Positions 44,935 through 60,175 of a stretch of DNA of 64,000 nucleotides are shown here, piece after piece. The notes below the pieces were generated by a model that did not search any database, had not been told where the DNA came from, and was given only the letters and a program-made list of their open reading frames with translations. The position numbers and the translations under genes are program-made. Origin of the DNA: Pseudoxanthomonas helianthi (GTDB taxonomy: Bacteria; Pseudomonadota; Gammaproteobacteria; Xanthomonadales; Xanthomonadaceae); contig NZ_JAGKTC010000002.1 of assembly GCF_017939625.1 (NCBI RefSeq), forward strand, positions 473,420 to 537,419, written 5' to 3'. How positions within the stretch are numbered: position 1 is the first letter of the stretch; every line of letters begins with the position of its first letter.

Positions 44935-46956
<2,022 letters not shown>

Positions 46957-46966
46957 CAGGCTGGCG

Positions 46967-47710
46967 TCAGCGGTACAGCCGCTGGCATTCCGGGCACCAG
47001 AACGCACGCCGCTTCTTGCGTCCGAGCGCCTTCGCATAGGACAGCCGCGTCCCGTCGCGCGGGCACTCGGTTTTGGTGTGCACCTGGTAGTGCTTGCGCA
47101 GCACGTAAGCCTTTTTCCAGTGGTAGAAGTCGAAGCTGTATTCGCGCGCCTGTTCGACCAGTTCGCGCAGTTTCGTCGGGGGCAGGGCGCCAACGCGGCT
47201 CTCCGGATGCACTCGGATGCGGAACAGCACCTCATTCTTGATGATGTTGCCCACGCCGGAGAACACGTCCTGTTCCAGCAACGCGTCGCAGGCCAGCGTG
47301 TCCGGTTGCGCACGCAGGGCACGCAACGCGGCGCGCGGGTTCCAGGCGTCGCTCATCACGTCCGTGCTGAAGTCGTACAGGCCGTCGATGTCGCCTTCCA
47401 GGTAGCGCACCGAGCAGGCATACAGGTTGAGCCGGCGCCCGCGTGCGAAGCGCAGTTGCAGCCGTGGCACGCGATCGGGCAGGTCCTCGTCGATGGCGTA
47501 CTTGCCGAACAGCATGAAATGCACGCGCAGCACGAAGCCGTCGAACTGGACGAGGAAATGCTTGCCCCAACTGGCCACGCGCCGCACCGCGAGGCCTTTC
47601 ATCCGGAACGGCTCGATCGTACGGGTGTTGCCGCCCACCTGCAGCACGCGTTTGCCGACGAAATCCTCGGTCAGTTCGCGCAGGATGACGATGGACGGAC
47701 CCTCCGGCAT
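46967..47710 (-). CDS. Fpg/Nei-family DNA glycosylase (endonuclease VIII-like)
   Basis: The 247-aa enzyme removes oxidised bases. It starts MPEGPS, with the catalytic Pro2 and Glu3, and has the H2TH region DVFSGVGNIIKNEVLF. The C-terminal zinc-finger region is unusual: CPRDGTRLSYAKALGRKKRR followed by FWCPEC. The second cysteine of the usual first CxxC is Asp (CPRD), so only three of four Cys ligands remain. This may be a normal feature of the subfamily. It is convergent with uvrB, a repair gene. Confidence 0.9.
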   Translation of the reverse strand: MPEGPSIVILRELTEDFVGKRVLQVGGNTRTIEPFRMKGLAVRRVASWGKHFLVQFDGFVLRVHFMLFGKYAIDEDLPDRVPRLQLRFARGRRLNLYACSVRYLEGDIDGLYDFSTDVMSDAWNPRAALRALRAQPDTLACDALLEQDVFSGVGNIIKNEVLFRIRVHPESRVGALPPTKLRELVEQAREYSFDFYHWKKAYVLRKHYQVHTKTECPRDGTRLSYAKALGRKKRRAFWCPECQRLYR

Positions 47711-47774
47711 GCGGCCAGTCTGCCCAGCGCCGGTGGAGGGGATGTATAGAGGATCGAGCCGCGGGCCCGAAAAC

Positions 47775-47800
47775 AAAAAACCGCCAGCGAAGGCGGTTTT
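47775..47800 (-). terminator. Native tRNA-Val terminator, now displaced
   Basis: CCGCC / GGCGG stem with TTTT on + and a six-U run on the minus strand. In the minus direction it lies just past the left attachment repeat, where the tRNA-Val transcript would have ended before the element inserted. The integrated element now separates it from the tRNA by 10.5 kb. Confidence 0.65.
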
Positions 47801-47860
47801 CCTGATCCTTCCGGCATTTCCGGATTCGGGCCAATCGAAGGCGGCTAAGCCGTTGATTCG

Positions 47861-47909
47861 ATTGGTGGGCGGTACAGGGTTCGAACCTGTGACCCCTACC
47901 ATGTCAAGG
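47861..47909. repeat. Left attachment site (attL): tRNA-Val 3' fragment
   Basis: An exact 49-bp copy of the 3' part of tRNA-Val, from the anticodon loop to CCA and the bases after it. It matches 58356-58404 in the same orientation. Identity stops abruptly on both sides (G versus T at the ends), as expected for a recombination core. Confidence 0.95.
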
Positions 47910-47992
47910 GTGAGAATTAGGCTCCCACTAGCCCCCATGAGCATCTAAGTATTTGAATTGTGGACCCATGAGACCCCATACGGACCACTATG

Positions 47993-48014
47993 TTTGCCGT
48001 ACTTTTGCCGTACT
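47993..48014 (+). repeat. Left arm-type integrase site (TTTGCCGTACT x2)
   Basis: Two head-to-tail copies of TTTGCCGTACT at 47993-48003 and 48004-48014, about 85 bp inside attL. The same tandem pair is found at the right end, in the same orientation. Such repeats at both ends of an integrated element are expected to bind the N-terminal domain of the integrase. Confidence 0.85.
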
Positions 48015-48062
48015 CGCCTGATAGACTCCCCGCCCATTGATTCAAGCAGGGGGGACGACGCG

Positions 48063-49211
48063 GTGGCAGATCTGAGTACGGTTCGCAACAGAGAGAGACT
48101 GAAGCCCCGACGCGAACCCTACTGGCACACCTTGGCTACCGGCCAAGCCATTGGCTATCGCCCCTCTACTTCGGGCAAGGGCGGAACGTGGATCGCCAAG
48201 TTCAATGACACAGACAGCAGTAAGCGGTCTTTGCGGTCGCTGGGTGACTTCGGCCACCTTCCGCCAAGCGAACGGTTCGGAGCCGCGACGAAGGAAGCGC
48301 GGGAATGGATGCTGCATCTGTCCGCAGGCGGCTCGACCGAAGCTCTGACCGTGCGCGAAGTGTGCGAACGCTACGCCAAGAACAAGCCCGATGCCGGTAA
48401 GTACTTCACCCGGCATGTCTACGATGATCCCATCGCCAAGGTGCTGGTTCACAAGCTGACAGATCGGCAGGTTCGCGCATGGCGTGACCGGTTGGAAGCG
48501 ACACCGGCCCAAGTCTCGCGTAACAAGGTCGGCCCGCGCGTCACCCGGGAGCGCACGACTGCGAGCGTCAATCGCGTTATGACCCCCTTTCGGGCTGCGC
48601 TCAACATGGCGCTAACCAACGGCGAAGCTCTAACAGCGAACGCGTGGCGCGGGGCCTTGAAGCCCGCTCAGGCCGAAGGGCGGCGGACCCTATACCTCGG
48701 CAAGGAACAGCGCCGCGCACTCCTGAAAGAACTGCCCGCCGACGCTGAAGCATTCTGCCGGGGGTTGTGCCTCCTACCGCTGCGACCCGGTGCGCTGGCC
48801 GAAGCCCGCGTCTCCGACTTCGATTCTCTGCGGGGCACGTTGGTGATTAGCCGCGACAAGGCGGGCGCGGGCCGCTCAATCGTGGTCCCGAAGGAAACCG
48901 CCGACCTCCTGCGCCAACACGTGAAGGGCAAGCTGCCAGCAGCCTTCATCTTCATGCGTGCAGCTGGCGGGCAGTGGAATAAGGATGCTTGGAAGAAGCC
49001 CATCACTGAAGCCGTCCAAGCCGCCGATCTTCCCTCTGGGACGACTGCATACACGCTTCGCCATTCTGCAATCACTGACTTGGTAACAAGCGGACTCGAT
49101 CTATTCACCGTAGCCCAGCTGGCTGGCACGTCCGTTCGCATGATCGAAAAGCACTACGGCCATCTTCAGCAGGAACACGCCACAGCCGCCTTGTCTACGT
49201 TGGCTCTGTGA
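48063..49211 (+). CDS. Tyrosine integrase
   Basis: The 382-aa site-specific recombinase integrates and excises the element at tRNA-Val. The catalytic domain has the first Arg in LPLRPGALAEARVSDFD, the second box YTLRHSAITDLV, where Tyr stands in place of the usual His of HxLR, and the Tyr nucleophile in IEKHYGHL. GTG 48063 is chosen because AGGGGGG lies about nine bases upstream and the protein then starts VADLSTVRNRERLKPRREPYW, a typical Xanthomonadaceae integrase start. A TTG 105 bases earlier would read through the arm-type repeats, which argues against it. Confidence 0.95.
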   Translation: MADLSTVRNRERLKPRREPYWHTLATGQAIGYRPSTSGKGGTWIAKFNDTDSSKRSLRSLGDFGHLPPSERFGAATKEAREWMLHLSAGGSTEALTVREVCERYAKNKPDAGKYFTRHVYDDPIAKVLVHKLTDRQVRAWRDRLEATPAQVSRNKVGPRVTRERTTASVNRVMTPFRAALNMALTNGEALTANAWRGALKPAQAEGRRTLYLGKEQRRALLKELPADAEAFCRGLCLLPLRPGALAEARVSDFDSLRGTLVISRDKAGAGRSIVVPKETADLLRQHVKGKLPAAFIFMRAAGGQWNKDAWKKPITEAVQAADLPSGTTAYTLRHSAITDLVTSGLDLFTVAQLAGTSVRMIEKHYGHLQQEHATAALSTLAL

Positions 49212-49259
49212 TCTAGCTTGCGATAGGGGAACAGTGCGGCAAGCAGACAGGGGGAAGCT

Positions 49260-49775
49260 ATGGCTGCAGGTTTGGGGATTACGGTCGCCCTGGTGGCGTT
49301 CACTGCTTCGGCAGTCGCGATCATCTACCGGCGTAGGTCGAAAGCACTTGTGACGGCGTATCACGCTGGCCGACGCGCGTACGCGTACGCGGCCGATCCC
49401 AAGGCGTTAGAGGACTACGCGGACGAAATGCTGCTAAGGGCTGCTGCCGCCCGGGCACTTGGCAGCCACAAGGCTCTAAATCGCGAGGGCTTCGCTATCG
49501 CCGCTCTCGCACAGGCCGATGACCTCACGCGGAGCCGCCAAGCCCAGCGGACACACTCTCAGATCATCGCTCTGCATCGCGAACTGGGTCCCCGTCAGCT
49601 ACAGGCGGAGCGCATGTTTAGGAGCATGCTCCGTGAAGCTGGTCATCTCGACATGACCACAGCTATGCGCATGCAGCTACAGCACTTCGTGGACACAGGG
49701 GAAGCTGCTTGGATGCAACGCAATGAATCCACAATCGTAGACGCTTCGGCCGAAACACTATCGGCGAACGCATAG
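49260..49775 (+). CDS. Small membrane-anchored protein of unknown function
   Basis: The 171-aa protein has one N-terminal transmembrane segment (residues 5-23, ITVALVAFTASAVAIIY) followed by RRRSK, so its soluble domain is probably cytoplasmic. The rest is helical and rich in Ala and Arg, without recognised motifs. AGGGGGAAGCT precedes the ATG, and it lies 48 bp after the integrase, so the two are probably one operon. Confidence 0.75.
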   Translation: MAAGLGITVALVAFTASAVAIIYRRRSKALVTAYHAGRRAYAYAADPKALEDYADEMLLRAAAARALGSHKALNREGFAIAALAQADDLTRSRQAQRTHSQIIALHRELGPRQLQAERMFRSMLREAGHLDMTTAMRMQLQHFVDTGEAAWMQRNESTIVDASAETLSANA

Positions 49776-49874
49776 GCGCATCGCAAGGGCCGCTAGTTGG
49801 CGTGACGTATCACGCGGGCATCCGGAGAATGCATGCCACTCGCCCACCGTCGGGCGACTACAGGGGAACTACTA

Positions 49875-49994
49875 GTGCTTCTTGAGATTGGCCGTTGTCG
49901 CGTAGAACTGTCCCGTGCATCGCTTTACGTGAAGCTAGGCAGAAAGGAACTCTATTGGAACTGGCATGCCGGGGAGTTCGTCCGCGACTTCTAA
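49875..49994 (+). CDS. 39-aa small protein
   Basis: GTG 49875 with AGGGGA seven bases upstream opens a 39-residue frame, ending at TAA 49992. The product reads LEIGRCRVELSRASLYVKLG then RKELYWNWHAGEFVRDF: aromatic and basic, with a plausible beta pattern. It is followed by a strong intrinsic terminator 33 bases later, which supports it as a real gene. I do not recognise the family. Confidence 0.6.
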   Translation: MLLEIGRCRVELSRASLYVKLGRKELYWNWHAGEFVRDF

Positions 49995-50027
49995 CGCAAC
50001 GCGCCCAATCAAGTCGGAAAGAAAGCT

Positions 50028-50061
50028 GCCGGTGGACCGATGGTCCCCGGCATTCTTTTTT
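50028..50061 (+). terminator. Intrinsic terminator after the int-side genes
   Basis: GCCGG-T-GGACC pairs with GGTCC-CCGGC around GAT, followed by ATTCTTTTTT. It ends the integrase-side transcription unit and isolates the control region that follows. Confidence 0.9.
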
Positions 50062-50080
50062 GTAGCTGCCCGACCCTTCA

Positions 50081-50112
50081 GATATCAAAAATCTGCGAGG
50101 GCATTTGATATC
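50081..50112. repeat. GATATCAAA inverted repeat
   Basis: GATATCAAA (50081-50089) and TTTGATATC (50104-50112) form a 9-bp inverted repeat with a 14-bp spacer. Each arm contains the palindrome GATATC. It looks like a protein-binding site rather than a terminator. Confidence 0.7.
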
Positions 50113-50142
50113 AAGGACGCGCGGCGATTCCCCCCGTAGGGG

Positions 50143-50158
50143 TGTCCCCACTAAAGCG
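50143..50158 (+). promoter_or_regulatory. Variant of the AAGTCCC phage-promoter-like motif
   Basis: TGTCCCCACTAAAGCG resembles the AAGTCCC(A/C) sites farther on. Its CACTAAAG is the core of T3-type phage promoters. It is the most divergent of the five copies, and chance cannot be ruled out. Confidence 0.35.
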
Positions 50159-50192
50159 CAGGGGGTGGGGCGGTTCATCTCGCGTCGCCACC

Positions 50193-50208
50193 AAGTCCCC
50201 GTAATTGG
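50193..50208 (+). promoter_or_regulatory. AAGTCCCC-type motif, copy A
   Basis: AAGTCCCCGTAATTGG, identical over all 16 bases to the copy at 53746-53761, on the other side of the recombinase and nuclease-like genes. Confidence 0.6.
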
Positions 50209-50295
50209 AAGGGCTGGAGGCCCGCCCCTCCGGTCAAACCTTAATGTCTACTGTTAGTAGCTACTGAGAGTTACAGAGGGTGGACTGACGGAACC

Positions 50296-50311
50296 AAGTC
50301 CCACTATACGG
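50296..50311 (+). promoter_or_regulatory. T7-promoter-like motif, copy B
   Basis: AAGTCCCACTATACGG is followed by AGGAGA. T7 promoters have CTCACTATAGGGAGA at the same relative place. Shared bases include CACTATA and the GG(A)GA initiation region. The homology to phage single-subunit RNA polymerase promoters is suggestive but not proven. Confidence 0.5.
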
Positions 50312-50417
50312 AGGAGACTCCCTCCCCTCCGTGGGTCAAACCTCTACGTCTACTGTTAGTAGCTACTGAGGGTTACAGAAGGTGGACTGACCGTGGACTG
50401 TGTCCATCATCATCCAT

Positions 50418-50514
50418 AGACCAAGACCTTGGTCTGCAAGGGTCTACCTTCAGTGGGGACAGACGGTCGGACAGGAGATCCATCGTCTAGACCAACGACC
50501 TTGGTCTACCTTCA
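50418..50514. repeat. Paired AGACCAAG / CTTGGTCT dyads
   Basis: The first dyad, AGACCAAG-AC-CTTGGTCT, is at 50418-50435. The second, AGACCAA-CGACC-TTGGTCT, is at 50489-50507. Each is followed by GTCTACCTTCA (50442-50452 and 50504-50514). A GTGGACTG repeat at 50382 and 50393 lies just upstream. They look like operator sites for a dimeric regulator. Confidence 0.8.
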
Positions 50515-50788
50515 TCGTCGTTAGCTCTTGCCATAGCGCAGCTGCTGGCCGCACCTTCGCGCCGCGCTGCCCTCGGACCGATCATCCCTGCTCTGGATGG
50601 TTGGTCTTTTTTTTCATCCGCCCCCGCTCCGCAGGATCGCTCAGAACGCCGCCAGTCGCCCAAGCGGCGCAGCGTCGCGTCTACCTGAGAGGATCGCACC
50701 GGCTTGTCACAGTCGAGCGGAGAGCGCGGCGCAGGCCGCGTAGCACTTAGCGAGGTCCGGTGCCTCGCGTGCAGGGTCGCCGCGCCCC
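50515..50788. other. Noncoding stretch before the serine recombinase
   Basis: No convincing gene is seen here. An eight-T run near 50607-50614, flanked by GGATG and CATCC, may be a weak terminator. Confidence 0.4.
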
Positions 50789-50824
50789 TTGTATCGTTTC
50801 TAATCGGTGGTATAGTAACGATAC
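50789..50824 (+). promoter_or_regulatory. Serine recombinase promoter within an inverted repeat
   Basis: TTGTAT (50789-50794) and TATAGT (50811-50816) are 16 bp apart. GTATCGTT (50791-50798) and AACGATAC (50817-50824) form an exact 8-bp inverted repeat across the core promoter, so the recombinase may bind here and repress itself, as in resolvase/res systems. Confidence 0.8.
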
Positions 50825-50847
50825 GAAGTCGACAAAGGGCGGCACCA

Positions 50848-51501
50848 ATGCACGGGAAGTTCGTTGCTTACTACCGGGTCTCCACCAAGCGGCAGGGAGA
50901 GTCCGGGCTTGGCTTGGAAGCACAGCGACAGGCCGTGCTTGATTACCTCAATGGCGGGAAGTGGGAACTACTCGCCGAGTACACGGACGTAGAGTCCGGT
51001 GGGGATGACAGCCGCCCCGAACTGGCCCGGGCTATCGACCACGCCAAGAAGGCCAAAGCAACGCTGGTCATCGCGAAGCTGGACCGGCTCAGTCGCAAGG
51101 TCTCTTTTGTGTCGAGCCTGATGGACTCGGGCGTTCGCTTCGTCGCGGCGGACAATCCGTCGGCAAATGAATTGACGATCAATATCCTTGCGGCGGTAGC
51201 GCAGGAAGAGCGACGGCTGATCTCCCAGCGCACCAAGGCCGCCCTGGTGGCCGCCAAGAAGCGGGGCGTGCGGTTGGGCAATCCGCGACTAGACGACGCG
51301 CGTACGGCCGCACAGGAAGCGAGAGAGCAAGGGGCGGACCGCTTCGCCACCAACGTGATCCCTGTGATTCGGCAGGTTCAAGCTGCGGGCTGCACCGGTC
51401 TACGTGAGATTGCCGCAGCATTGGACGCGCGAGGGATCAAGACCCGCCGGGGATCGAACTGGACGGCGGCTGCGGTAAGTCGCGTACTCTCCCGCGCGTG
51501 A
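50848..51501 (+). CDS. Small serine recombinase (resolvase/invertase family)
   Basis: The 217-aa protein has the N-terminal resolvase domain with the catalytic Ser in AYYRVSTKRQGESGLGLEAQ (residue 12) and LVIAKLDRLSRKVSFV. The dimerisation helix follows. A C-terminal helix-turn-helix, ending GLREIAAALDARGIKTRRGS, completes the usual small-recombinase arrangement. ATG 50848 is the first good start after the promoter; an upstream open frame lacks a ribosome site. It is the second recombinase class in the element, and its function could be DNA inversion, cassette exchange or multimer resolution. Confidence 0.93.
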   Translation: MHGKFVAYYRVSTKRQGESGLGLEAQRQAVLDYLNGGKWELLAEYTDVESGGDDSRPELARAIDHAKKAKATLVIAKLDRLSRKVSFVSSLMDSGVRFVAADNPSANELTINILAAVAQEERRLISQRTKAALVAAKKRGVRLGNPRLDDARTAAQEAREQGADRFATNVIPVIRQVQAAGCTGLREIAAALDARGIKTRRGSNWTAAAVSRVLSRA

Positions 51502-51542
51502 TGGGGTATTTATTTTTTTGAGGTCATGGACGGGAGGGGAGC

Positions 51543-52712
51543 ATGCTGGTCACACGCGTACTCGGAGAATGTCCCGCATGCGGCTTTGAGATTTTTGGGA
51601 ACGTCAGCGTCTTGGGCGACTTCGTGCTACGTGGGTGCGGACGTTGCAACTACTCTCAGCGAATCTACCTCCCTCCAGTAAGGAAGAAGGTTCTCTATCT
51701 TGACCAGCCCTTCTTTAGCGGGGCCTTCCGAGGTGGGGATCGCCGGTTTGTAGAACTCGCTGACCGTATCGAACGGATCGCCGCCTCTCAGCTGCTCACC
51801 ATTCCGCGATCCAATATCCATGAAGCCGAGACACGTCTGTGGGCGCGGGCTGATGAACTATTGGAGTTCATAAAGACGACTAGCCGAGGCCATAAGTTTG
51901 AGTCGGATTACCGGGTCGAACGCAGTCAGATAATCAAGGGATTCCGACAGTGGCTAGACAATGGGCCTGTGGAATATCCCATTGAACAAAGGGAAGCATT
52001 GACTGCACGGGTTCACGAGTGGGATAGCTACTTCATAGTCGATGTCAGGCACGCTCCCGGAGATACCGCCCAAGAACGCGAGAACAAGCGGCAGTCCACT
52101 GAGAACTTGGTGAACCTCTTTGATGGCTGGCGGCAATCAAACGATACCTTTGAGCAAGATGTCGCCGGAGAGTTGGATGGCGCGAAGAGGATCTATCTAA
52201 GCTCCTACTTGCGTTACTTCGCTCGGGTAGGTCAAGGCGACTTTGCGGCGCTACTCGATTCCCCAATCGTCTCTAAGGTTGTGGAAGGCATGCGGCATCT
52301 TCTGCCAAGAGAAATGCCATTTCCAATGCAACTAGAACGTTGCGCTCTCTTCTTCGACTCTCAGCACTTCGCGCATCTACCTTTTCAGTACATACGCGCT
52401 AGGTCATTCGCCGTGCTGAAGGCTATGGTTAAGGCCGGTGCGTATGCAAATCGCGAGCGGGCACTACAAAAACTGAGCGGGTTCTATTCGGATGTCGATC
52501 ATATCGCCCATTACGCCCCCTACTGTGACGCTATCGCACTTGACCAGCCCATGGCCGAACTCACAAAGCATCCCGGGTTGGCGTTAGAGGAAGCATTCGG
52601 CGTTAAGGTTTTTAGCCTTAACAACCTCGCTGAGTTCACGGCTTGGCTTGATGAGCTTGAGGCTTCGATGACCGATGAACACCAAGTAGGGCTAAGAGCG
52701 GCGTACGCCTGA
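51543..52712 (+). CDS. Zinc-ribbon protein with PIN-like features
   Basis: The 389-aa protein starts with a zinc ribbon (Cys10, Cys13, Cys32, Cys35 in CPAC and CGRC). Then comes KKVLYLDQPFFSG, with Asp54 at the end of a beta strand. Near the C-terminus are DVDHIAHYAPYCDAIALDQP, with Asp319, Asp329 and Asp334, and a final strand GVKVFSLNNLAEFTAWLDE. This spacing of acidic residues resembles PIN-like nucleases. The middle is helical and not recognised. The codon use is AT-richer than the host. It is coupled to the next gene and may be a defence or exclusion protein; this is inference. Confidence 0.65.
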   Translation: MLVTRVLGECPACGFEIFGNVSVLGDFVLRGCGRCNYSQRIYLPPVRKKVLYLDQPFFSGAFRGGDRRFVELADRIERIAASQLLTIPRSNIHEAETRLWARADELLEFIKTTSRGHKFESDYRVERSQIIKGFRQWLDNGPVEYPIEQREALTARVHEWDSYFIVDVRHAPGDTAQERENKRQSTENLVNLFDGWRQSNDTFEQDVAGELDGAKRIYLSSYLRYFARVGQGDFAALLDSPIVSKVVEGMRHLLPREMPFPMQLERCALFFDSQHFAHLPFQYIRARSFAVLKAMVKAGAYANRERALQKLSGFYSDVDHIAHYAPYCDAIALDQPMAELTKHPGLALEEAFGVKVFSLNNLAEFTAWLDELEASMTDEHQVGLRAAYA

Positions 52713-52715
52713 TTA

Positions 52716-53702
52716 GTGCACATGATCCCGCCCGCCGTGCAAAGGAAGTTTGAGAGCGCATGCAGCGACGCAGGCGGGCTTTGGGACATTAAGCTGCGAC
52801 GGCTAATAGCACTCTTCGAATGGTTCACGTGGGAAGGGCTCGCTGATCCGCACTTTGTGCAGGAACTAGCAGCCGAGGACACGTATCGGGAGCGACTGTC
52901 AGAGATGCTGGTCGCCTACAAGCTGATGCGATCCGGCTATGAGCTTAAAAGTGATTCCGCTGGGCCAGACTTCTGGGCCTACAAAGGCGAGCAAGGATTC
53001 TGGGTCGAGGTTGTAACGCCCCGCCCCACAAGAATCGACCCCGACTACCTCGCCCAGACCGGGGCGACAGATGAGGGCATGCTGGAGTTTCCGGCGGATC
53101 AAGTTCTGAGGCGGTGGACTCAGGCCATCGATAAGAAAGTCGCGGCGCTTCTGGGACCGCGAGAGGGAAGTCCTGATGGAAAGCGGCCCGGCTACCTGCA
53201 CAAAGGAATCGTGAAGGCTACCCAGCCTTACGTCATAGCCGTCAATGGCCGAAACCTGAGAGGCAAGGCAGGAATCGGTTTTAACGGCAGCAGCGGCAAT
53301 CCCTGCGCGGTAGAGGCACTGTTCGCAGTCGGTCCGCTCCACATTCGGTTTGACCCAATAGGGAACGGCTTCATGCGCCCCAGTCTCGGTAGGTCGCAGA
53401 GGGCGAGCATAGAGTCTCCGAATGGTTCTCCTATTCCGCTAACGACGTTCCTCGACGAGACCTATGCGCAAGTGAGCGCGGTGTGGGCGCTAGACATTGA
53501 TGAGGATGAAGTACTGCTAGACCCGGCTTGGCCCAACCTTGAGCGCAACTACTTTGCCTCGGCTGGGGTATTCAATCCGCTAGCTGTCAATCCGCTTGCC
53601 GTCGGGGCCTTCCCGACGTTTGAAGACTGGACGTGCAACATCTCTGGTGACAGCTATCAGCTGACGCATCACAACCGGATCCCGTTCCGCCCGTCCCGCT
53701 GA
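52716..53702 (+). CDS. PD-(D/E)xK-like nuclease fold protein
   Basis: The 328-aa product shows the order E63 in ERLSEMLVAYKL, then SAGPDFWAY with Asp85, then GFWVEVVTP with Glu98. This is the pattern of proteins with a restriction-endonuclease-like core, although the usual Lys after the last Glu is Val. The C-terminal half is not recognised. The start is GTG 52716 or ATG 52722, three or nine bases after the stop of the preceding gene, so the two are probably translated together. Low GC like its partner. Confidence 0.6.
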   Translation: MHMIPPAVQRKFESACSDAGGLWDIKLRRLIALFEWFTWEGLADPHFVQELAAEDTYRERLSEMLVAYKLMRSGYELKSDSAGPDFWAYKGEQGFWVEVVTPRPTRIDPDYLAQTGATDEGMLEFPADQVLRRWTQAIDKKVAALLGPREGSPDGKRPGYLHKGIVKATQPYVIAVNGRNLRGKAGIGFNGSSGNPCAVEALFAVGPLHIRFDPIGNGFMRPSLGRSQRASIESPNGSPIPLTTFLDETYAQVSAVWALDIDEDEVLLDPAWPNLERNYFASAGVFNPLAVNPLAVGAFPTFEDWTCNISGDSYQLTHHNRIPFRPSR

Positions 53703-53745
53703 CCAGCAGCGGCGCTGCGTCGCCGTCTTCCCTTGCCTACGGTCT

Positions 53746-53810
53746 AAGTCCCCGTAATTGGCTAGAACACCCCGCGTCTTCCCGGGACTCCGCTGAGTCC
53801 CACTATTAGG
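53746..53810 (+). promoter_or_regulatory. Second pair of AAGTCCC-type motifs (copies C and D)
   Basis: AAGTCCCCGTAATTGG at 53746-53761 is identical to copy A at 50193. GAGTCCCACTATTAGG at 53795-53810 resembles copy B and is followed by TAAGG. They lie in the 160-bp gap before the HTH gene, in the same order and orientation as A and B. Confidence 0.6.
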
Positions 53811-53862
53811 TAAGGCAGCCGTTCTAAGCCGTTACCCGTCCCTTTCACTACCGACTTTCACC

Positions 53863-54096
53863 ATGACCACCGATTCACAACAAGCAGACCGGCCGCTGAC
53901 CACCAAGCAGGCGGCTGAAGCTCTGAACGTCACCCCGCACACCTTGGAGAACTGGCGGCATGCAGGCCGAGGGCCGCGCTTTATCCGCTATTCCCGCACC
54001 TGCATCCGCTACCGCCCCGCCGATCTAGACGCTTGGCTGGCGCAGCGAGCCGCTGAAAGCGCTACCGACTCGCAGCTGTCCGCTGCCGCGCAGTAA
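53863..54096 (+). CDS. MerR/excisionase-type helix-turn-helix protein
   Basis: The 77-aa protein has LTTKQAAEALNVTPHTLENW followed by RHAGRGPRFIRYSRTCIRYR, the HTH_17/Xis winged-helix pattern, ending with a helix DLDAWLAQRA. Such small proteins act as directionality factors or regulators in integrated elements. A promoter-like motif pair lies just upstream. Confidence 0.88.
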   Translation: MTTDSQQADRPLTTKQAAEALNVTPHTLENWRHAGRGPRFIRYSRTCIRYRPADLDAWLAQRAAESATDSQLSAAAQ

Positions 54097-54105
54097 TCAT
54101 CTCCC

Positions 54106-54143
54106 GCGTCTAGCAGCCCTCGTCGGGGCCGCCCACTAGACGC
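54106..54143. repeat. GCGTCTAG inverted repeat
   Basis: GCGTCTAG (54106-54113) and CTAGACGC (54136-54143) form an 8-bp inverted repeat across a GC-rich loop in the gap after the HTH gene. No U-run follows. It is either an operator or a weak transcription stop. Confidence 0.5.
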
Positions 54144-54220
54144 ATCCCGCGAACTCCCTTGCTGCCCTCTGCCCCGCCCTGGTGGGAGCGGAACGGGCTG
54201 CCTTTGTCTTTGAGATACCC

Positions 54221-54622
54221 ATGAAACGAAACACCAAGCCCGAGACCTTCACCGGTCCCGATGGCACCGCACTTGCTCGCGTACCCCTCGCTGGATCGAA
54301 GGGGCATGCAGTTATCGAATTAGCCGATTATTCGGCGCTGATCGCTGCCGGAGTGTCCCCTTACTGGGCCTTCAGTTCCGCTGCCCCTACCCGAAGCTAC
54401 GTGTGCGTAAAGCGCGGAAGGAAGCTGTTTCCCGTCGCTCGCTTCATCGTCAGTGCTGGTCATAGGCAGGTAGTGCGCTACCGCGATGGCAACCACCTGA
54501 ACCTGAGGCGATCCAATCTGTACATCGATTCCGGTCCTGCGAAGAGCGCATGCGTTGCTGCGCAGCCGCTAGTTGTAGACGGCCGAGGCGCAGCCCCTGC
54601 ATTGAGGATGCAGCATGCCTGA
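54221..54622 (+). CDS. HNH-like DNA-binding protein
   Basis: The 133-aa protein has VRYRDGNHLNLRRSNLYI near its C-terminal third, resembling the V.H.dgn.lDnR..NL core of HNH endonucleases, but with the usual first His replaced. It may be an inactive or variant HNH protein. ATG 54221 is used; an upstream in-frame ATG adds 13 residues. The gene overlaps the next start by eight bases. Confidence 0.6.
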   Translation: MKRNTKPETFTGPDGTALARVPLAGSKGHAVIELADYSALIAAGVSPYWAFSSAAPTRSYVCVKRGRKLFPVARFIVSAGHRQVVRYRDGNHLNLRRSNLYIDSGPAKSACVAAQPLVVDGRGAAPALRMQHA

Positions 54623-57600
54623 CCATCCGAGGGCGACAAATGGTCAGGAGCTAAACGAGTACTTCGCGCTGACGGGTGACGCCACGCCAATCCAGAGCGA
54701 GGCCGAAATTCGGTCCGAGCAATACGCGGCCGAGCAAAAGGCCAAGGCCGTGGACTTCTCTCAGATCTATCAGGCCGGTGTCGAGAACAATCACACCGTC
54801 ACCAACGTGATGCAGTTCATGGAGATGACGGGCTTTGAGTTCGATGACACCTATGAACTTGATCCCGCGAAGTTGGTGAAAGACCTAACGGAGCGCGGCA
54901 TTCCCATTGATTGGACCGACGAATTCGGCGACGTAGTTAGCCAGCAGCACTACGAAGCGAAGCTGAGGGTCTACCAGCAGCGGGCTGAGAACGACCGCAT
55001 GATGACCAACGCGGGCGGAAAGGGCTTCGGCGCAATGCTGCTGTCGAGCCTGTCAGACCCTGTGGCGTTCGCCGTGGATGCCGTCGCTGCGCCACTCTCC
55101 GCAGGCACGAAGGGCGGCAAGCTCTATCGCGTGGGAAAGGCGGCGCTGGGCGCGGGAGTCTCTAACACCATCGCAGGCTCCCTGCAAGGTTTGGCCGATC
55201 CGAACTATGACGCCAATGCCATGCTGGTCGACTTCACGGCGGGAACGAGTCTCGGCGTGCTTATTGAAGGTGGCGGAACGCTACTGCGCAGAGAGGAACG
55301 TAAGGAACTGTTCGACGCATTGAACCGTTCGATGCGCAAGGCCGTCCCTAGTGCCTTCGGTGACGACACGCTGTCGGCCGCACGCGCTAGCGGCACGCAT
55401 GTAGAGAGCCTGGTGGGCGTACAGACCGCACTTGGTGAGGGCCGGGTAAAGTCGGCTCGCGAGGCGTTGGAAGATCTGACCGACGACCTCGGGCCGCTGC
55501 GGTCCGCTATCGATAAGCGCGTCCGTCTGGATGCCATGCGCTATGTGGACCAGCAGGGCGAAACCGGCCGAACGCTGCTACGCGCCCTCCATTCCGACCC
55601 CGTAGGCGTCAAGGGCGACGCCGTGAACGCCACGGGCGCTGTCGAGAGAGCCAATCGTCTCAGAGGCGTTCTGACGCACCTGTGGCGCGTCGGCGATGAC
55701 GGCAGCAGCGGATGGGAAGGCGCGGTGCGTGAATCGTTCGAAGGCCAAGGTAAGCGCGGCGTTCGCGGCTGGTGGAATCGGCAGTTCTCTTTGGATGGCC
55801 GCGAAGGGTTCTCCCGCGCGGTCGGTGAGACAGCACTGACCGGCATGAAGCATGCGGACCCTGCCGTGAACAAAGCGGCGGCGCATCTGGAGTCGGTGGT
55901 CATGCCCCGGGTCTGGGATGAAGGTGCGCGGGCTGGTGTCCGGGGCATGGATGCCAGCGGTGGCCTGATGGGCTACGCGATGCCTCGCGTACTACGTGGC
56001 GATCTGTGGCAGTTCATCCGCGACCTTGGCGGTAAGGACACTCGCGTTCTGGAAGAGCCACTAACGGAGATGTTCGCTGCGGCGATCCGTGGCGGCCGTC
56101 AGGGACTTGGACTGCCTGTAGACGAAGAGACCACCATGAAGGCTGCCAAGGCGTACGTTGGCCGCGTTATGGGAGCGAAGGCTGATCCTCTCGGCGGTAT
56201 CGACCGCATGACTGAACTACGCCTCGACTACCTAGAGGACGTACTGGAAGAGGCAGGAGTAAAGCAGGACGAGATCGCCGAGATCGTCGCGAAGTTCACA
56301 CCTGAGGCGACAAAGGGCGGAGCGGTTCCGACCGCGAGACTGAAGCAGCGTCTGCCGTTGGACATGACAGTAAGCGTCACGCTAGAAGACGGGACGCGGC
56401 TTCGCATGGTCGACCTTTTCGACACCCACGCCGAGCGCGTAGTTGATAACTACCTCCGCGAGATGTCGGGACACATCGCACTTGGACAGAGCGGCTACGG
56501 TTCGTGGCGCGAAGTAGACGGTCTGATTACCCAGCTGCATGCAGTAGAGAAGCAGCTAGACGCCGATGGCGCGAAGGTTGCCCGCATGTTCCTCCGGAAC
56601 ATCCTTGGCAGGCCGATGGTCGAGAGCGAGACGAGCGACTTTGCGCGGATTGCTCGCATGGGGATGGACGTGAATTTCCTATCCACCATGGGTTCTGTGA
56701 TGTTCTCCATGCTGGCGGAGAACGGAAAGGTTCTCGGGCTGACCGGGTTCCGGGCTGCAATGAAGCAAGTTCCCGCGCTGGCATCGGTGGTCAGGCAGGC
56801 GATGAACGGCACGCTTGACGATGGCATGGCCCGTCAGATGGCTAGTCTGTTCGGTACCGGCATGTCGATGCTGAAGAATCAGGTGTCGCTCCGGGCTGAC
56901 GACTACAACATTCCAGGGTTTTCCGATGGGCTGCTTGGGAAGGTGGATCGTGCGGCACAGAGAGCAAAGCGGTTCCAGACCATCGCGTCGGGCCTCGGGC
57001 CAATTACCGACATGCAGCAGCTGTTCTACGGTCGCGCCATGCTCCAGCGCCTTTACGATGACGCACAGCGCGACGGCATGAGCAAAGCCCTTCGCTCCCG
57101 ATTCAAGGACTATGGATTGGGAGAGGAAGAGATTGACGCGGTGCTGCAGCATCTAAAGGGCGCTGAAGCTAAGGGCGGCGTTCTCGTAGATCCCAAGTTG
57201 GACGATCTGCCCGACAAGCTGAAAGTCCGCTTTGCCGAGGCCATGAACCGCGCGACCCGGCACGTCATCCAAGAGTTAGACGTGGGCGCGGTTCCGGAGT
57301 GGATGCATGGAGGCTTCGCTAAACTGCTAATGCAGTTCCGCACCTTCACTATCGGTGCATGGACGCGACACACCCTCCACGGATTCGCGAAGCATGACAG
57401 CATCGCGGCAGTGCAGTTCGCCACGTCCATGGCGTTCTCAGCTGCTGGCTACGTCGGGATGGTCTACGTGAATCATGCGGCCGACGCTGAGCGACGCAAG
57501 CGAATGCTGGAGCCTGAGGCCATCGCCAAGATGGCATTTGCTCGCGCTAGCGATTCGTCGATCGTTCCCATGCTTTGGGACACGGCGGCCGACTTCCTAG

Positions 57601-57869
57601 GGTTTGAACAGCAGTTTAGCTACGGCCGCAGTGGTGGCCTTGGGACTGACTTGGTCGGCGGCAATCCAACCATTAGCACGCTTGATCGGCTGGGCACGGT
57701 CGCCAAGATTCCAGCTAGTGCCGCTCGCGGCGAAGTGACACAGGAACAGGTTCAGGCAGCCATGGGCCTGATCTGGCTAAACCGGCTGCCCGGACTGCTG
57801 AACCTGCAGCACATTCTCTCGGAAGACTTCCCGTCAGCGCGGGACGTGGAAGAGGCTTCGGGGCAGTAG
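54615..57869 (+). CDS. Podovirus-type internal virion (DNA-ejection) protein
   Basis: The 1,084-aa protein is helical, without cysteine-rich or enzyme motifs that I recognise. Its C-terminal third has LLMQFRTFTIGAWTRHTLHG (residues about 904-923) and a hydrophobic segment with SAAGYVGMVYVNHA. Further on, SSIVPMLWDTAADFLGFEQQ leads into a proline-containing tail. This order is typical of the large internal core (ejection) proteins of T7-like podoviruses. The lytic transglycosylase domain of T7 gp16 is not visible. The ATG is inside the end of the HNH-like gene, with GAGGATG upstream. It is the only virion-type gene in the element. Confidence 0.75.
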   Translation: MPDHPRATNGQELNEYFALTGDATPIQSEAEIRSEQYAAEQKAKAVDFSQIYQAGVENNHTVTNVMQFMEMTGFEFDDTYELDPAKLVKDLTERGIPIDWTDEFGDVVSQQHYEAKLRVYQQRAENDRMMTNAGGKGFGAMLLSSLSDPVAFAVDAVAAPLSAGTKGGKLYRVGKAALGAGVSNTIAGSLQGLADPNYDANAMLVDFTAGTSLGVLIEGGGTLLRREERKELFDALNRSMRKAVPSAFGDDTLSAARASGTHVESLVGVQTALGEGRVKSAREALEDLTDDLGPLRSAIDKRVRLDAMRYVDQQGETGRTLLRALHSDPVGVKGDAVNATGAVERANRLRGVLTHLWRVGDDGSSGWEGAVRESFEGQGKRGVRGWWNRQFSLDGREGFSRAVGETALTGMKHADPAVNKAAAHLESVVMPRVWDEGARAGVRGMDASGGLMGYAMPRVLRGDLWQFIRDLGGKDTRVLEEPLTEMFAAAIRGGRQGLGLPVDEETTMKAAKAYVGRVMGAKADPLGGIDRMTELRLDYLEDVLEEAGVKQDEIAEIVAKFTPEATKGGAVPTARLKQRLPLDMTVSVTLEDGTRLRMVDLFDTHAERVVDNYLREMSGHIALGQSGYGSWREVDGLITQLHAVEKQLDADGAKVARMFLRNILGRPMVESETSDFARIARMGMDVNFLSTMGSVMFSMLAENGKVLGLTGFRAAMKQVPALASVVRQAMNGTLDDGMARQMASLFGTGMSMLKNQVSLRADDYNIPGFSDGLLGKVDRAAQRAKRFQTIASGLGPITDMQQLFYGRAMLQRLYDDAQRDGMSKALRSRFKDYGLGEEEIDAVLQHLKGAEAKGGVLVDPKLDDLPDKLKVRFAEAMNRATRHVIQELDVGAVPEWMHGGFAKLLMQFRTFTIGAWTRHTLHGFAKHDSIAAVQFATSMAFSAAGYVGMVYVNHAADAERRKRMLEPEAIAKMAFARASDSSIVPMLWDTAADFLGFEQQFSYGRSGGLGTDLVGGNPTISTLDRLGTVAKIPASAARGEVTQEQVQAAMGLIWLNRLPGLLNLQHILSEDFPSARDVEEASGQ

Positions 57870-57891
57870 CTCCCGCGTTCCACCTTTAACT

Positions 57892-57965
57892 CTCACGCCG
57901 CGCGTAGCGGCGTCCCCTCACCAACTACCACCGGGACCGGTGCGAAGCACTCCGCTTCGCGCCGC
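57892..57965 (+). other. Hairpins in the spacer before the AlpA gene
   Basis: ACGCCGC...GCGGCGT and GCGAAG...CTTCGC stems in a 128-bp gap. Neither has a U-run; they may weaken read-through from the long gene. Confidence 0.4.
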
Positions 57966-57997
57966 GTTTCCGCGTGGCCGAAATCAGAATCTGAAAG

Positions 57998-58234
57998 ATG
58001 AGTGCAACCGAACAAGTAGCCATTCCCGGCATCCCTGATCCGATCCTTCGCGAGAAGCTAGTCCTTCGCGCAACCGGCCTGACCAGTTCCACGCTGGACC
58101 GGCTGGTACGCAGTGGAGCCTTTCCGCCAAAGCTGCGCCTTGGTCCCCGCTCAGTCGGCTGGTTGGCGTCGGCCGTCAATGCATGGATCGCCGCCAAAGT
58201 CGCCGAGGCGCAGTCGGCGCGGCTGGTCGCGTAG
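57998..58234 (+). CDS. AlpA-family regulator / excisionase
   Basis: The 78-aa protein has ILREKLVLRATGLTSSTLDR and LVRSGAFPPKLRLGPRSVGW, the AlpA/Xis pattern, and a final helix VNAWIAAKV. AlpA proteins activate integrase genes or act as excisionases in P4-like and PICI-like elements. It is placed at the opposite end from the integrase. Confidence 0.92.
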   Translation: MSATEQVAIPGIPDPILREKLVLRATGLTSSTLDRLVRSGAFPPKLRLGPRSVGWLASAVNAWIAAKVAEAQSARLVA

Positions 58235-58301
58235 CTGGGAAAGAGAGAAGGCCAGAAAAGCAAAAGGGGAGACGGATGAAAGCCCGGTAACAGCATCGCT
58301 G

Positions 58302-58323
58302 TTTGCCGTACTTTTGCCGTACT
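58302..58323 (+). repeat. Right arm-type integrase site (TTTGCCGTACT x2)
   Basis: The same tandem pair of 11-mers as at 47993-48014 (58302-58312 and 58313-58323), 33 bp inside attR. Orientation is the same as on the left. Confidence 0.85.
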
Positions 58324-58355
58324 CCCCAATACCCAATGAGCTAAGTCATTGTTTT

Positions 58356-58404
58356 ATTGGTGGGCGGTACAGGGTTCGAACCTGTGACCCCTACCATGTC
58401 AAGG
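58356..58404. repeat. Right attachment site (attR)
   Basis: The exact 49-bp partner of attL; it lies within the intact tRNA-Val gene, so integration kept a functional tRNA. Confidence 0.95.
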
Positions 58405-58432
58405 TAGTGCTCTACCGCTGAGCTAACCGCCC
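58358..58432 (-). tRNA. tRNA-Val (anticodon GAC)
   Basis: On the minus strand the sequence folds into a 75-nt tRNA: acceptor GGGCGGT/ACCGCCC, D arm GCTC/GAGC, anticodon stem CTACC/GGTAG with loop TTGACAT (anticodon GAC, valine), T arm ACAGG/CCTGT with TTCGAAC, and encoded CCA. The 3' part is the integration target of the element. Confidence 0.96.
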
Positions 58433-58535
58433 GATTTCGCCCCTTGCGGGGGCGCGCATGATAGCACCGGAAACCGCCGCGGGGAACCTCGCGGGCCGGT
58501 CTGGGTGGCCGGTGCCGACGGGGTCTTGCTCTGTC

Positions 58536-60053
58536 CTACCTCGCCACCGGCTCCGCCTTGCAGTTCTGGGCAATGAATTCCTCGTGTGTGGGCATCAGGT
58601 CGACCACCCCATGCATGACCCGGCGCACGTCGGCCAGCATCCCTTCGACGAAGGCCTCGGGCTTGGCGTCGGCTAGGCCATGGTAGCCGTGCGGGTGGAT
58701 GCCTTGCCCGTACATGACCTGAAACCAGCTGACTTCGCTGAACAACTCGTTGTTGATCCGGTAGACCCGACCGTTGCTGCGGAACAGCTCAACCTTGTGG
58801 CGCAGCGTGTCGGGGATCGGCATCGTGCGGCAGTAGTTCCAGAACTCGGAATCGTCGCGCCGGGTGGCGTGATAGTGCAGGACTATGAAGTCGCGGATCT
58901 GCTCGTATTCCTGTATCGACTGGCGGTTGAATTCGTCGATGTCGGCCTGGTCGAAGTTGCGGTTGGGGAAGAACGCGACCAGCCGGGAAATGGCCTTCTG
59001 CACCAGGTGGATCGAGGTCGATTCCAATGGTTCCATGAAGCCGCCGGCCAAGCCCACGGCGACCACGTTCTTGTTCCAGAACTGCTTGCGCCTGCCGGTG
59101 GTGAACTTGATCGGGCGTGGATCGGCCAACGCTTCGCCATCCAGGTTGCGCATCAGAATGTTGGCGGCCTCGTCATCGCTCATGTACTCGCTGCAATACA
59201 CATGACCATTTCCGATCCGGCTCTGCAGCGGAATGCGCCATTGCCAGCCCGCCTTGTGAGCGGTCGATCGGGTGTAGGGCGTCAGCGGCGACACCGAGGC
59301 GCACGGCACCGCCAGCGCCCGGTTGCAGGGGAGCAAGTGACTCCAATCCTCGTAACCCGTCTGCAAGGTGCGCTCGATCAGAAGGCCGTGGAAGCCCGAG
59401 CAATCGACGAACAGGTCTGCGGCATGGACGTCGCCGTTGGCCAAGGTGACCGATGTGACGAACCCGGATTCAGGGTGCTGCTGCACGCTGGAGATGCGGC
59501 CTTCGATCCGGACGGCGCCATGTTGCTCGGCGTAACGGCGCAGGAAGCGCGCGTACAACCCAGCGTCGAAATGGAAAGCGTGGGCGATGTCCTGCAGCGG
59601 CGAGTTCGGGTACTTGTCCGTCGCCCGCATGAATTTGTTCTTTTCGCAGGCCAGCAGGTTGATCGAATAGTTTTCGAGGCCGTCGGCCTTGCCGGCCTGG
59701 CGCATCTTCAACCAGAAATGCGGGAAATCGACCACTCCGGTGCTGTGGCCCATGGTGCCGAAACCATGCGTGTAGGTTTCGCCGATGGCGCCCCAGTCGC
59801 GGAACTGGATTCCCAGCTTGAACGTGGCCTGGGTCGCCTTGATGAACTCGTCTTCGTCGATGCCGAGCGCCTTGTTGAAATTGACGATTGGGGGAATCGT
59901 CGCTTCGCCGACGCCAACGATGCCGATTTCATCGGACTCGACCAGATGCAGGTCCATGTCCTTGCCGAGGGCCTGGGACAGGAAGGCGGCGGTCATCCAC
60001 CCGGCGCTGCCGCCGCCGACGATGATCACCTTGCGGATGCGGTTGTCGGTCAT
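58536..60053 (-). CDS. Tryptophan halogenase-like flavoprotein
   Basis: The 505-aa FAD-dependent protein has VIIVGGGSAGWMTAAFL at the N-terminus and the GWQWRIPL motif of flavin halogenases. FMEPLESTSIHLVQ contains the Glu of the active site. Real halogenation is not certain; in Xanthomonadaceae such genes often stand next to TonB-dependent receptors, as here, and may act on a nutrient or metabolite. It is separated from the receptor gene by a strong terminator, so it probably has its own promoter. AGAGG before the ATG supports the start. Confidence 0.9.
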   Translation of the reverse strand: MTDNRIRKVIIVGGGSAGWMTAAFLSQALGKDMDLHLVESDEIGIVGVGEATIPPIVNFNKALGIDEDEFIKATQATFKLGIQFRDWGAIGETYTHGFGTMGHSTGVVDFPHFWLKMRQAGKADGLENYSINLLACEKNKFMRATDKYPNSPLQDIAHAFHFDAGLYARFLRRYAEQHGAVRIEGRISSVQQHPESGFVTSVTLANGDVHAADLFVDCSGFHGLLIERTLQTGYEDWSHLLPCNRALAVPCASVSPLTPYTRSTAHKAGWQWRIPLQSRIGNGHVYCSEYMSDDEAANILMRNLDGEALADPRPIKFTTGRRKQFWNKNVVAVGLAGGFMEPLESTSIHLVQKAISRLVAFFPNRNFDQADIDEFNRQSIQEYEQIRDFIVLHYHATRRDDSEFWNYCRTMPIPDTLRHKVELFRSNGRVYRINNELFSEVSWFQVMYGQGIHPHGYHGLADAKPEAFVEGMLADVRRVMHGVVDLMPTHEEFIAQNCKAEPVAR

Positions 60054-60118
60054 TCAAGCCTCTTTCGATACCACGTGCGCCATCTATCGTAATCCGTATC
60101 CTGAGCGAGGCGGGGGCC

Positions 60119-60151
60119 AAAAAAACTTTGCCGACCCGGAGGTCGGCAAAG
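60119..60151 (-). terminator. Terminator after the TonB-dependent receptor
   Basis: On the minus strand CTTTGCCGACC pairs with GGTCGGCAAAG around TCCG and is followed by seven U. It is a perfect 11-bp stem, placed between the receptor and halogenase genes. Confidence 0.95.
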
Positions 60152-60175
60152 CGAGGAACTGCCTGAGGGCTGCGA

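Follow-up and report, generated by a model that had tools for sequence, protein, structure and literature searches.

A 64,000-bp stretch of the Pseudoxanthomonas helianthi genome (contig NZ_JAGKTC010000002.1, positions 473,420 to 537,419; hereafter the window, in which all positions are given) contains a 10,544-bp integrative element, 47861..58404, that occupies a tRNA-Val gene and encodes a relative of the phage T7 ejection protein gp16 as its only T7-like gene. We consider that there is about an even chance that this is a satellite-like integrative element, resident in tRNA-Val, that travels in the particles of T7-like podophages. The reading is supported by the intact integrative core, the intact gp16 gene and the recurrence of gp16 in two other elements of the family. 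Somewhat more tentatively, the element may belong to an as yet undescribed class of Lysobacteraceae satellites that depend on T7-like podophages. Members of this class would neither build nor resize capsids but would bring their own DNA-ejection protein (in one case together with gp15 and a T7-type small terminase), such that helper particles would deliver the satellite through a satellite-encoded channel, perhaps past the exclusion imposed by the helper.

Results

An integrative element in tRNA-Val with a single T7-like gene

The element lies between exact 49-bp direct repeats that are copies of the 3' part of tRNA-Val(GAC). An initial annotation of the window, made from the sequence by eye and reading frame, had proposed such exact attachment repeats with an integrase at one end and an AlpA-type protein at the other, and all of these were confirmed (Table 1). 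A 28-bp repeat composed of two TTTGCCGTAC units is found just inside each end (starting at 47991 and 58300); the two copies are 96% identical and are likely to be the arm-type sites of the integrase. All genes of the element are on the plus strand, in the order tyrosine integrase, 171-residue protein, 53-residue open reading frame (ORF), 853-bp geneless stretch, serine resolvase, 389-residue protein, 328-residue protein, HTH_17 protein, HNH_3-like protein, gp16-like protein and AlpA. The G+C content of the element is 0.599 versus 0.637 in its flanks.

The gp16-like protein aligns with positions 208-1224 of the 1235-position phrog_342 profile ('internal virion protein with endolysin domain'), and a four-sequence profile matched the solved T7 gp16 chains 7eyb/6yt5 (E 3.5e-21) plus other podophage ejection proteins. 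The reading frame is full length (1,084 codons, without stops), its G+C content at third codon positions (GC3, 0.71) is like that of the remaining element genes, and it is the sole gp16 found in its own genome. According to PMC8954989, T7 gp16 has a transglycosylase at residues 1-156, followed by a gp15-binding segment and, at the C terminus, by a region that binds DNA within the cytoplasm of the recipient cell. The element protein is without this N-terminal lytic transglycosylase, as the profile match begins at position 208 and no SLT domain was found in Pfam searches.

No other virion gene was detected. In searches with Pfam, PHROGs and NCBIfam, none of nine ORFs of the element matched a capsid, portal, large terminase (TerL), tail or replication family, and tblastn (E 1e-5) found none of 14 other kinds of T7-like genes in positions 45001-62000. 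The tblastn queries were proteins of the T7-like phages RHEph01 and BB8 and of the T7-like prophage of genome G054, and included portal, major capsid, TerL and the RNA and DNA polymerases. No polymerase or primase gene was found in the element, and no T7-type small terminase (TerS) was found there by tblastn. Note that the 77-residue HTH_17 protein has a weak match to a small terminase family (phrog_57, E 2.5e-4); its best matches are excisionase-like, and the phrog_57 match is read as reflecting a common helix-turn-helix (HTH). These results bear out the initial annotation, which had recorded one virion-type gene and no capsid, portal, terminase or replication gene.

Recurrence of lone gp16 genes in elements of the family

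Relatives of gp16 were found in 4 of 150 relatives (alone in two of these), in 6 of 397 genomes of the order, in 1 of 369 genomes of the class (the P. helianthi genome itself) and in 2 of 38 genomes of the genus. Three loci of a collection of genome contigs also contained gp16, two of them being the G054 and G139 contigs again. These search sets (relatives, order, class, genus and contigs) overlap, and the intact cases come from seven genomes. Four of the seven are T7-like prophages (G054, Coralloluteibacterium stylophorae; G139, Marinicella marina; G381; G537) that carry portal, scaffold, capsid, both tail tubes and TerL. The other three, the window element and two elements called G027 and L138 here, are not such prophages, and no portal, major capsid or TerL gene was found in any of them. 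They lie at tRNA-Val (window), tmRNA (G027) and tRNA-Leu (L138).

The G027 element, from a genome of the same genus, is 16,427 bp long and sits at the 3' end of the tmRNA gene between 16-bp attachment (att) sites. An integrase and an AlpA-like protein (42% to the window AlpA) lie at its opposite ends. It also encodes an HNH_2 protein, a gp15-like protein of 742 residues (E 1e-82 to the phage contig L133), a gp16-like protein of 1,348 residues and a small terminase of the T7 type (Pfam DNA_Packaging_2, PF11123, 36.1 bits vs a cut-off of 27.5). The L138 element, in a Xanthomonadaceae metagenome-assembled genome (CADECF010000003.1), spans ~15.3 kb, is flanked by 17-bp copies of the 3' end of tRNA-Leu(CAA) and encodes an integrase, a serine resolvase, an HNH_3 protein and a gp16-like protein of 1,675 residues; AlpA was not found in it. 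Two further gene families (30% and 39%) that are common to G027 and L138 were not found in viral contigs. An HNH-type gene is present in each of the three elements: HNH_2 in G027, HNH_3 in L138 and, directly upstream of gp16 in the window, a gene that is HNH_3-like by homology. IMG/VR contigs that have gp16 with no or few matches to the structural queries (e.g., L084-L088, L090, L093, L095, L099, L112 and L132) may be divergent phages and were not counted as satellites; many others of the 63 were too short to judge.

Loss of the SLT domain was considered as a marker of satellites and rejected, as the prophage gp16 proteins of G139, G381 and G537 are about the same length as the window protein (1,071-1,090 residues, stop to stop). 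The gp16 of the phage contig L134 has no SLT-like N-terminus by eye, and L133, a close phage relative of the G027 gp16, retains the domain.

The three lone proteins occupy three different positions among phage and prophage sequences in a gp16 tree of 40 rows: the G027 protein near L133/L083/L089, the L138 protein with L134, and the window protein on a long branch beside G139. The last join may be an artefact of two long branches meeting, and the sister of the window gene is unsure. Well-supported branches force three changes between lone and phage-borne gp16, and shuffled labels gave a mean of 2.9 changes, so that the three changes say only that the lone proteins are not grouped.

As a control, the T7-type tail-tube protein B and the portal were each found in 2 of the 150 relatives, both times in G054 and G139, and no lone portal or tail-tube gene was seen in this set. 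The control and gp16 searches, which are indicated as covering the same set (133 good genomes, 88 genera), differ in sensitivity; two-row alignments at E 1e-6 were used in the former and one protein at E 0.001 in the latter. The control covers two genes in 150 genomes, hence small numbers, and the use of gp16 as the search bait is a bias by which elements with other lone T7-like genes would be missed. Read within these bounds, the pattern of lone gp16 genes does not look like random decay.

The same integrase family at tRNA-Val in related genomes

The tRNA-Val site was compared across 247 genomes of the family, including that of P. helianthi. At least 6 of the 246 others (G040, G047, G230, G298, G299 and G308) have an integrase of the same family in this tRNA-Val, in regions of 3.8 to 51.5 kb. 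None of the 14 kinds of T7-like genes was found by tblastn in any of the six regions, and a full T7-like prophage at this site, of which the element could be a remnant, was looked for in the family genomes and not found. The statement of the initial annotation that the element is not a prophage is thus well supported.

The tRNA-Val of G040 contains a 3.8-kb element having the integrase (69%), arm repeats (the double TTTGCCGTAC unit once and the single unit once), parts of the repeat stretch at 49995..50847, the 53-residue ORF, the HNH-like gene (43%) and AlpA (68%), and in it no gp16, resolvase, 389-residue or 328-residue gene was found. The conserved core consists of the integrase, arm-site repeats, repeat-rich geneless stretch, HNH-like gene and AlpA, and also exists as this cargo-free 3.8-kb element. 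Because the G040 mini-element has the core without gp16, a T7-like phage does not look like the source of the window element's core, and gp16 looks like an addition. In G040 (G040:C12:77000-121000, L045-L047) the mini-element and an apparently complete prophage stand in tandem in one tRNA-Val with three att copies. This prophage has its own integrase plus portal, TerL, head-closure and tail genes (no capsid gene was found among 10 proteins scanned) and by our reading appears to be P22-like.

The regions with this integrase family in G230, G308 and G299 are genomic islands. That of G230 (G230:C3, L051-L053) is an island of ~51 kb in which six scanned proteins gave type I-C Cas proteins (Csd1 and a Cas3-like protein), RHS, an AcrB-type pump and other non-phage families; four proteins of the G308 region gave AAA, kinase/nuclease and protease families by Pfam. 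The 16.6-kb island of G299 (G299:C1, L054) encodes a cytosine methylase, a protein with NsnA/PD-T4-2 matches and a helicase with MzaC matches. PADLOC gave no match for one of four G299 proteins, three G047 proteins, two further G308 proteins and one G298 protein.

Nine viral contigs also encode relatives of the element integrase. Two IMG/VR contigs of ~10-11 kb, L153 and L154, have tRNA-Val(CAC) near one end together with head-protease and tape-measure genes, plus a capsid gene in L154, and look like partial-virion satellites. The 10.3-kb contig L157 (integrase 35% to that of the element; no tRNA found) has matches to major head, portal and TerL, a gene set that by these matches is like that of capsid-forming phage-inducible chromosomal islands (cf-PICIs). 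L155, of which one protein was scanned, resembles L157 by eye. AlpA matches were found in L154, L155 and L157 and, at E 0.01, not in L153.

Other features of the element

The gene inventory of the initial annotation was extended by the serine resolvase, a second small HTH protein and the HNH_3-like protein; the lone ejection-like protein that it had described recurs elsewhere, as given above.

Table 1 Positions of the genes, repeats and attachment sites of the tRNA-Val element in the window
Feature	Position	Strand	Evidence or remark
attL	47861..47909	.	49-bp exact direct repeat, copy of tRNA-Val 3' part
Arm-type-like repeat by attL, two TTTGCCGTAC units	47991..48018	.	role inferred
Tyrosine integrase, ~382 aa from GTG 48063	48063..49211	+	PF00589 E 8e-12; phrog_1 E 4e-32; open frame from 47958
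171-aa protein, one N-terminal hydrophobic segment, no assigned function	49260..49775	+	
53-aa ORF, common to G040 mini-element	49833..49994	+	57% over 49 aa
Geneless 853-bp stretch with two 58-bp repeats and two AGACCAA..TTGGTCT dyads	49995..50847	.	no gene recognised
Short serine recombinase (resolvase/invertase), ~217 aa	50848..51501	+	PF00239 E 9e-29 on open frame from 50704
389-aa protein, N-terminal Cys4 motif, possibly PIN-like	51543..52712	+	relatives in prophage-type contigs and plasmids
328-aa possible nuclease (nuclease motif by eye)	52716..53702	+	PADLOC E 5e-6, 6e-6; phrog_8571 (unknown function) E 6e-9
77-aa HTH_17 protein, excisionase-like	53863..54096	+	PF12728 E 1e-12
146-aa HNH_3-like protein, core gene common to G040 mini-element	54182..54622	+	43% over 100 aa to G040 homologue
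T7 gp16-like ejection protein, 1084 aa, no SLT domain	54615..57869	+	phrog_342 E 8e-108; overlaps HNH-like gene by 8 bases
AlpA-type regulator/excisionase	57998..58234	+	PF05930 E 1e-12; 68% to G040 mini-element AlpA
Arm-type-like repeat by attR	58300..58327	.	role inferred
attR	58356..58404	.	49-bp exact direct repeat, inside intact tRNA
tRNA-Val(GAC), integration target, intact	58358..58432	-	

In a seven-row alignment of the integrase, invariant positions start at residue D38 of the long frame. The 146-residue protein itself has no Pfam match, and the HNH_3 match of its G040 homologue (E 4.5e-4) falls short of the cut-off. The geneless stretch, which is partly conserved in the G040 mini-element, is a possible origin or control region. 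Just outside the element, the open frame of a neighbouring host gene (46967-47944, minus strand; endonuclease VIII-like by eye) runs through attL, and the insertion may have altered the upstream end of this gene.

The 389-residue protein has relatives in two other genomes of the family, two viral contigs and two plasmids. The 328-residue protein, relatives of which are in 22 plasmid records, has weak partial similarity in PADLOC to PD-T7-1 and PD-T7-5 (E ~5e-6); PD-T7-1 is a validated anti-phage system (PMC9519451). The initial annotation had taken the two as a nuclease-like pair. They are not a fixed pair, in that the two genes are found in different genomes and plasmids. As the 328-residue gene was not found beside the 389-residue gene in G157, G309, L145 or L146, the two look like separate cargo.

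Discussion

If the element is a satellite of T7-like podophages, then upon infection by such a phage AlpA and the integrase would excise it, and borrowed helper machinery would replicate it from its own repeat region, with the resolvase reducing concatemers to monomers. A helper would package the element; its terminase would take up the element DNA, and the element gp16 would be assembled into the inner core of the particle, either replacing the helper gp16 or alongside it. Through its own gp16 the element would then govern the entry of its DNA into the next cell. The 389- and 328-residue proteins would be defence cargo directed against competing phages.

Several observations weigh against this scheme. 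None of the nine scanned ORFs was recognisable as a gene for packaging, capsid remodelling or replication, and no T7-like helper prophage was detected in the P. helianthi or G027 genomes (a single gp16 match in each and no portal or tail-tube match). Integrases of this family also occur in ordinary genomic islands (G230, G308 and G299). Absence of the SLT domain is common to gp16 proteins of full prophages and hence is no hallmark of satellites. The gp16 GC3 values in G027 (0.87) and L138 (0.83) are above those of most of their element neighbours, a difference compatible both with recent acquisition and with maintenance, and genome G428 contains a decayed 72-residue gp16 fragment with an in-frame stop (L072, G428:C42:194563-194778) that is a relic of a T7-like gene. 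The term satellite, which the initial annotation had used, remains likely given the related integrases on the partial-virion contigs L153, L154 and L157, and is tempered by the genomic islands and by the lack of a recognised packaging or replication gene.

The chief rival, which we hold to be unlikely, is that the element is a mobile defence island that is not packaged by phages and that gp16 is anti-phage cargo. In that case gp16 made by the host, located at the inner membrane or on incoming ejectosomes, would block entry of T7-like phages or poison their assembly. Such an island would account for the defence-type genes that accompany this integrase family elsewhere (type I-C Cas in G230, methylase and MzaC-like helicase in G299), for the weak resemblance of the 328-residue protein to PD-T7-1 and PD-T7-5 and for the want of a packaging gene. 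However, the gp15 and small terminase genes beside gp16 in G027 fit packaging better than exclusion, and AlpA and related integrases are found on contigs with partial virion sets.

Distinctly improbable is a plain genomic island into which gp16 came by chance, for example by HNH-mediated recombination during phage infection, and in which it has no function for the element. The HNH-type gene in each of the three elements is consistent with this, homing nucleases being markers of exchange boundaries in phages (PMC10448857), and the gp16 genes of G027 and L138 have a high GC3 that suggests recent acquisition. For the window gene, however, the intact 1,084-codon frame with element-like GC3 suggests residence with upkeep, and the recurrence of gp16 in three elements also argues against chance. 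The least probable explanation, that the elements are what deletions left of T7-like prophages in which gp16, the largest structural gene, survived by chance, could appeal to the T7-like phages that have integrase genes (RHEph01 and BB8) and to the decayed fragment in G428, but was rejected because the integrase, AlpA, HNH-like gene, repeat stretch and att sites match the 3.8-kb element that has no gp16, the window gp16 is full length without stops, the element has none of the 14 other kinds of T7-like genes, and gp16 (the bait) is retained in all three elements with no lone portal or tail-tube gene in the 150 relatives.

The satellites known so far subvert capsid size or DNA packaging. One that substitutes its own ejection protein would, if the packaging scheme is true, seize the delivery step instead, and T7-like phages, among the best studied podophages, would become hosts to satellites. 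If gp16 is instead only defence cargo, a protein of phage entry would have been turned against phage entry, which would be unusual. The three separate cases of lone gp16 make the question testable by removal of one gene.

Comparison with known satellites and phages

Among the literature matches listed, none described satellites that carry ejection proteins or satellites of T7-like phages; coverage of subscription journals there is thin, and absence in print is not established. As the initial annotation had stated, the gene set is unlike those of phage-inducible chromosomal islands (PICIs) and P4. The element has int and alpA as do PICIs, but no pri-rep-like family. P4-like satellites use a tRNA site, and the element has the AlpA/Vis-type regulator and tRNA-associated tyrosine integrase by which they are recognised. 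The combination of integrase and AlpA-type regulator is shared with P4-like satellites and with AH14b of Pseudomonas (PMC4936722). In contrast to P4-like satellites, no P4-type primase-helicase, psu or sid was seen among the family matches of the nine ORFs.

Phage-inducible chromosomal minimalist islands (PICMIs), as described in PMC10803314, resemble the element in having integrase and AlpA, a minimal gene set without a capsid-remodelling gene, defence cargo and a virulent helper, the last two being putative for the element. PICMIs (int, alpA and prim next to fis) differ in that the element is at tRNA-Val rather than fis, has no detected primase and carries gp16. The cf-PICIs are similar in having integrase plus AlpA and virion genes of their own, and are of a similar size class (14 kb on average according to PMC10803314), whereas the element lacks capsid, protease, portal and terminase and its virion gene is a T7-type ejection protein.

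The E. coli satellites described in PMC10448857 encode a small number of virion genes, of which tape measure is one, and lack a terminase. They too are att-flanked and have a tyrosine recombinase next to tRNAs, with a serine recombinase in a subset. Their virion genes are capsid, tape-measure and baseplate parts, and they have RepA_N replication modules and, according to PMC10448857, no AlpA; the element has AlpA, has gp16 as its virion gene, and no RepA_N was found in it. The T7-like phages RHEph01 and BB8 share with the element a gp16 homologue and integrase genes, and the T7-like prophages of G054, G139, G381 and G537 share the gp16 homologue; these phages and prophages have structural and replication genes, of which the element has gp16 alone. 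Both gp16 and tape measure proteins, such as those of the E. coli satellites, assist the passage of DNA through the envelope, and for this reason the provision of an entry-channel protein may be a wider theme among satellites.

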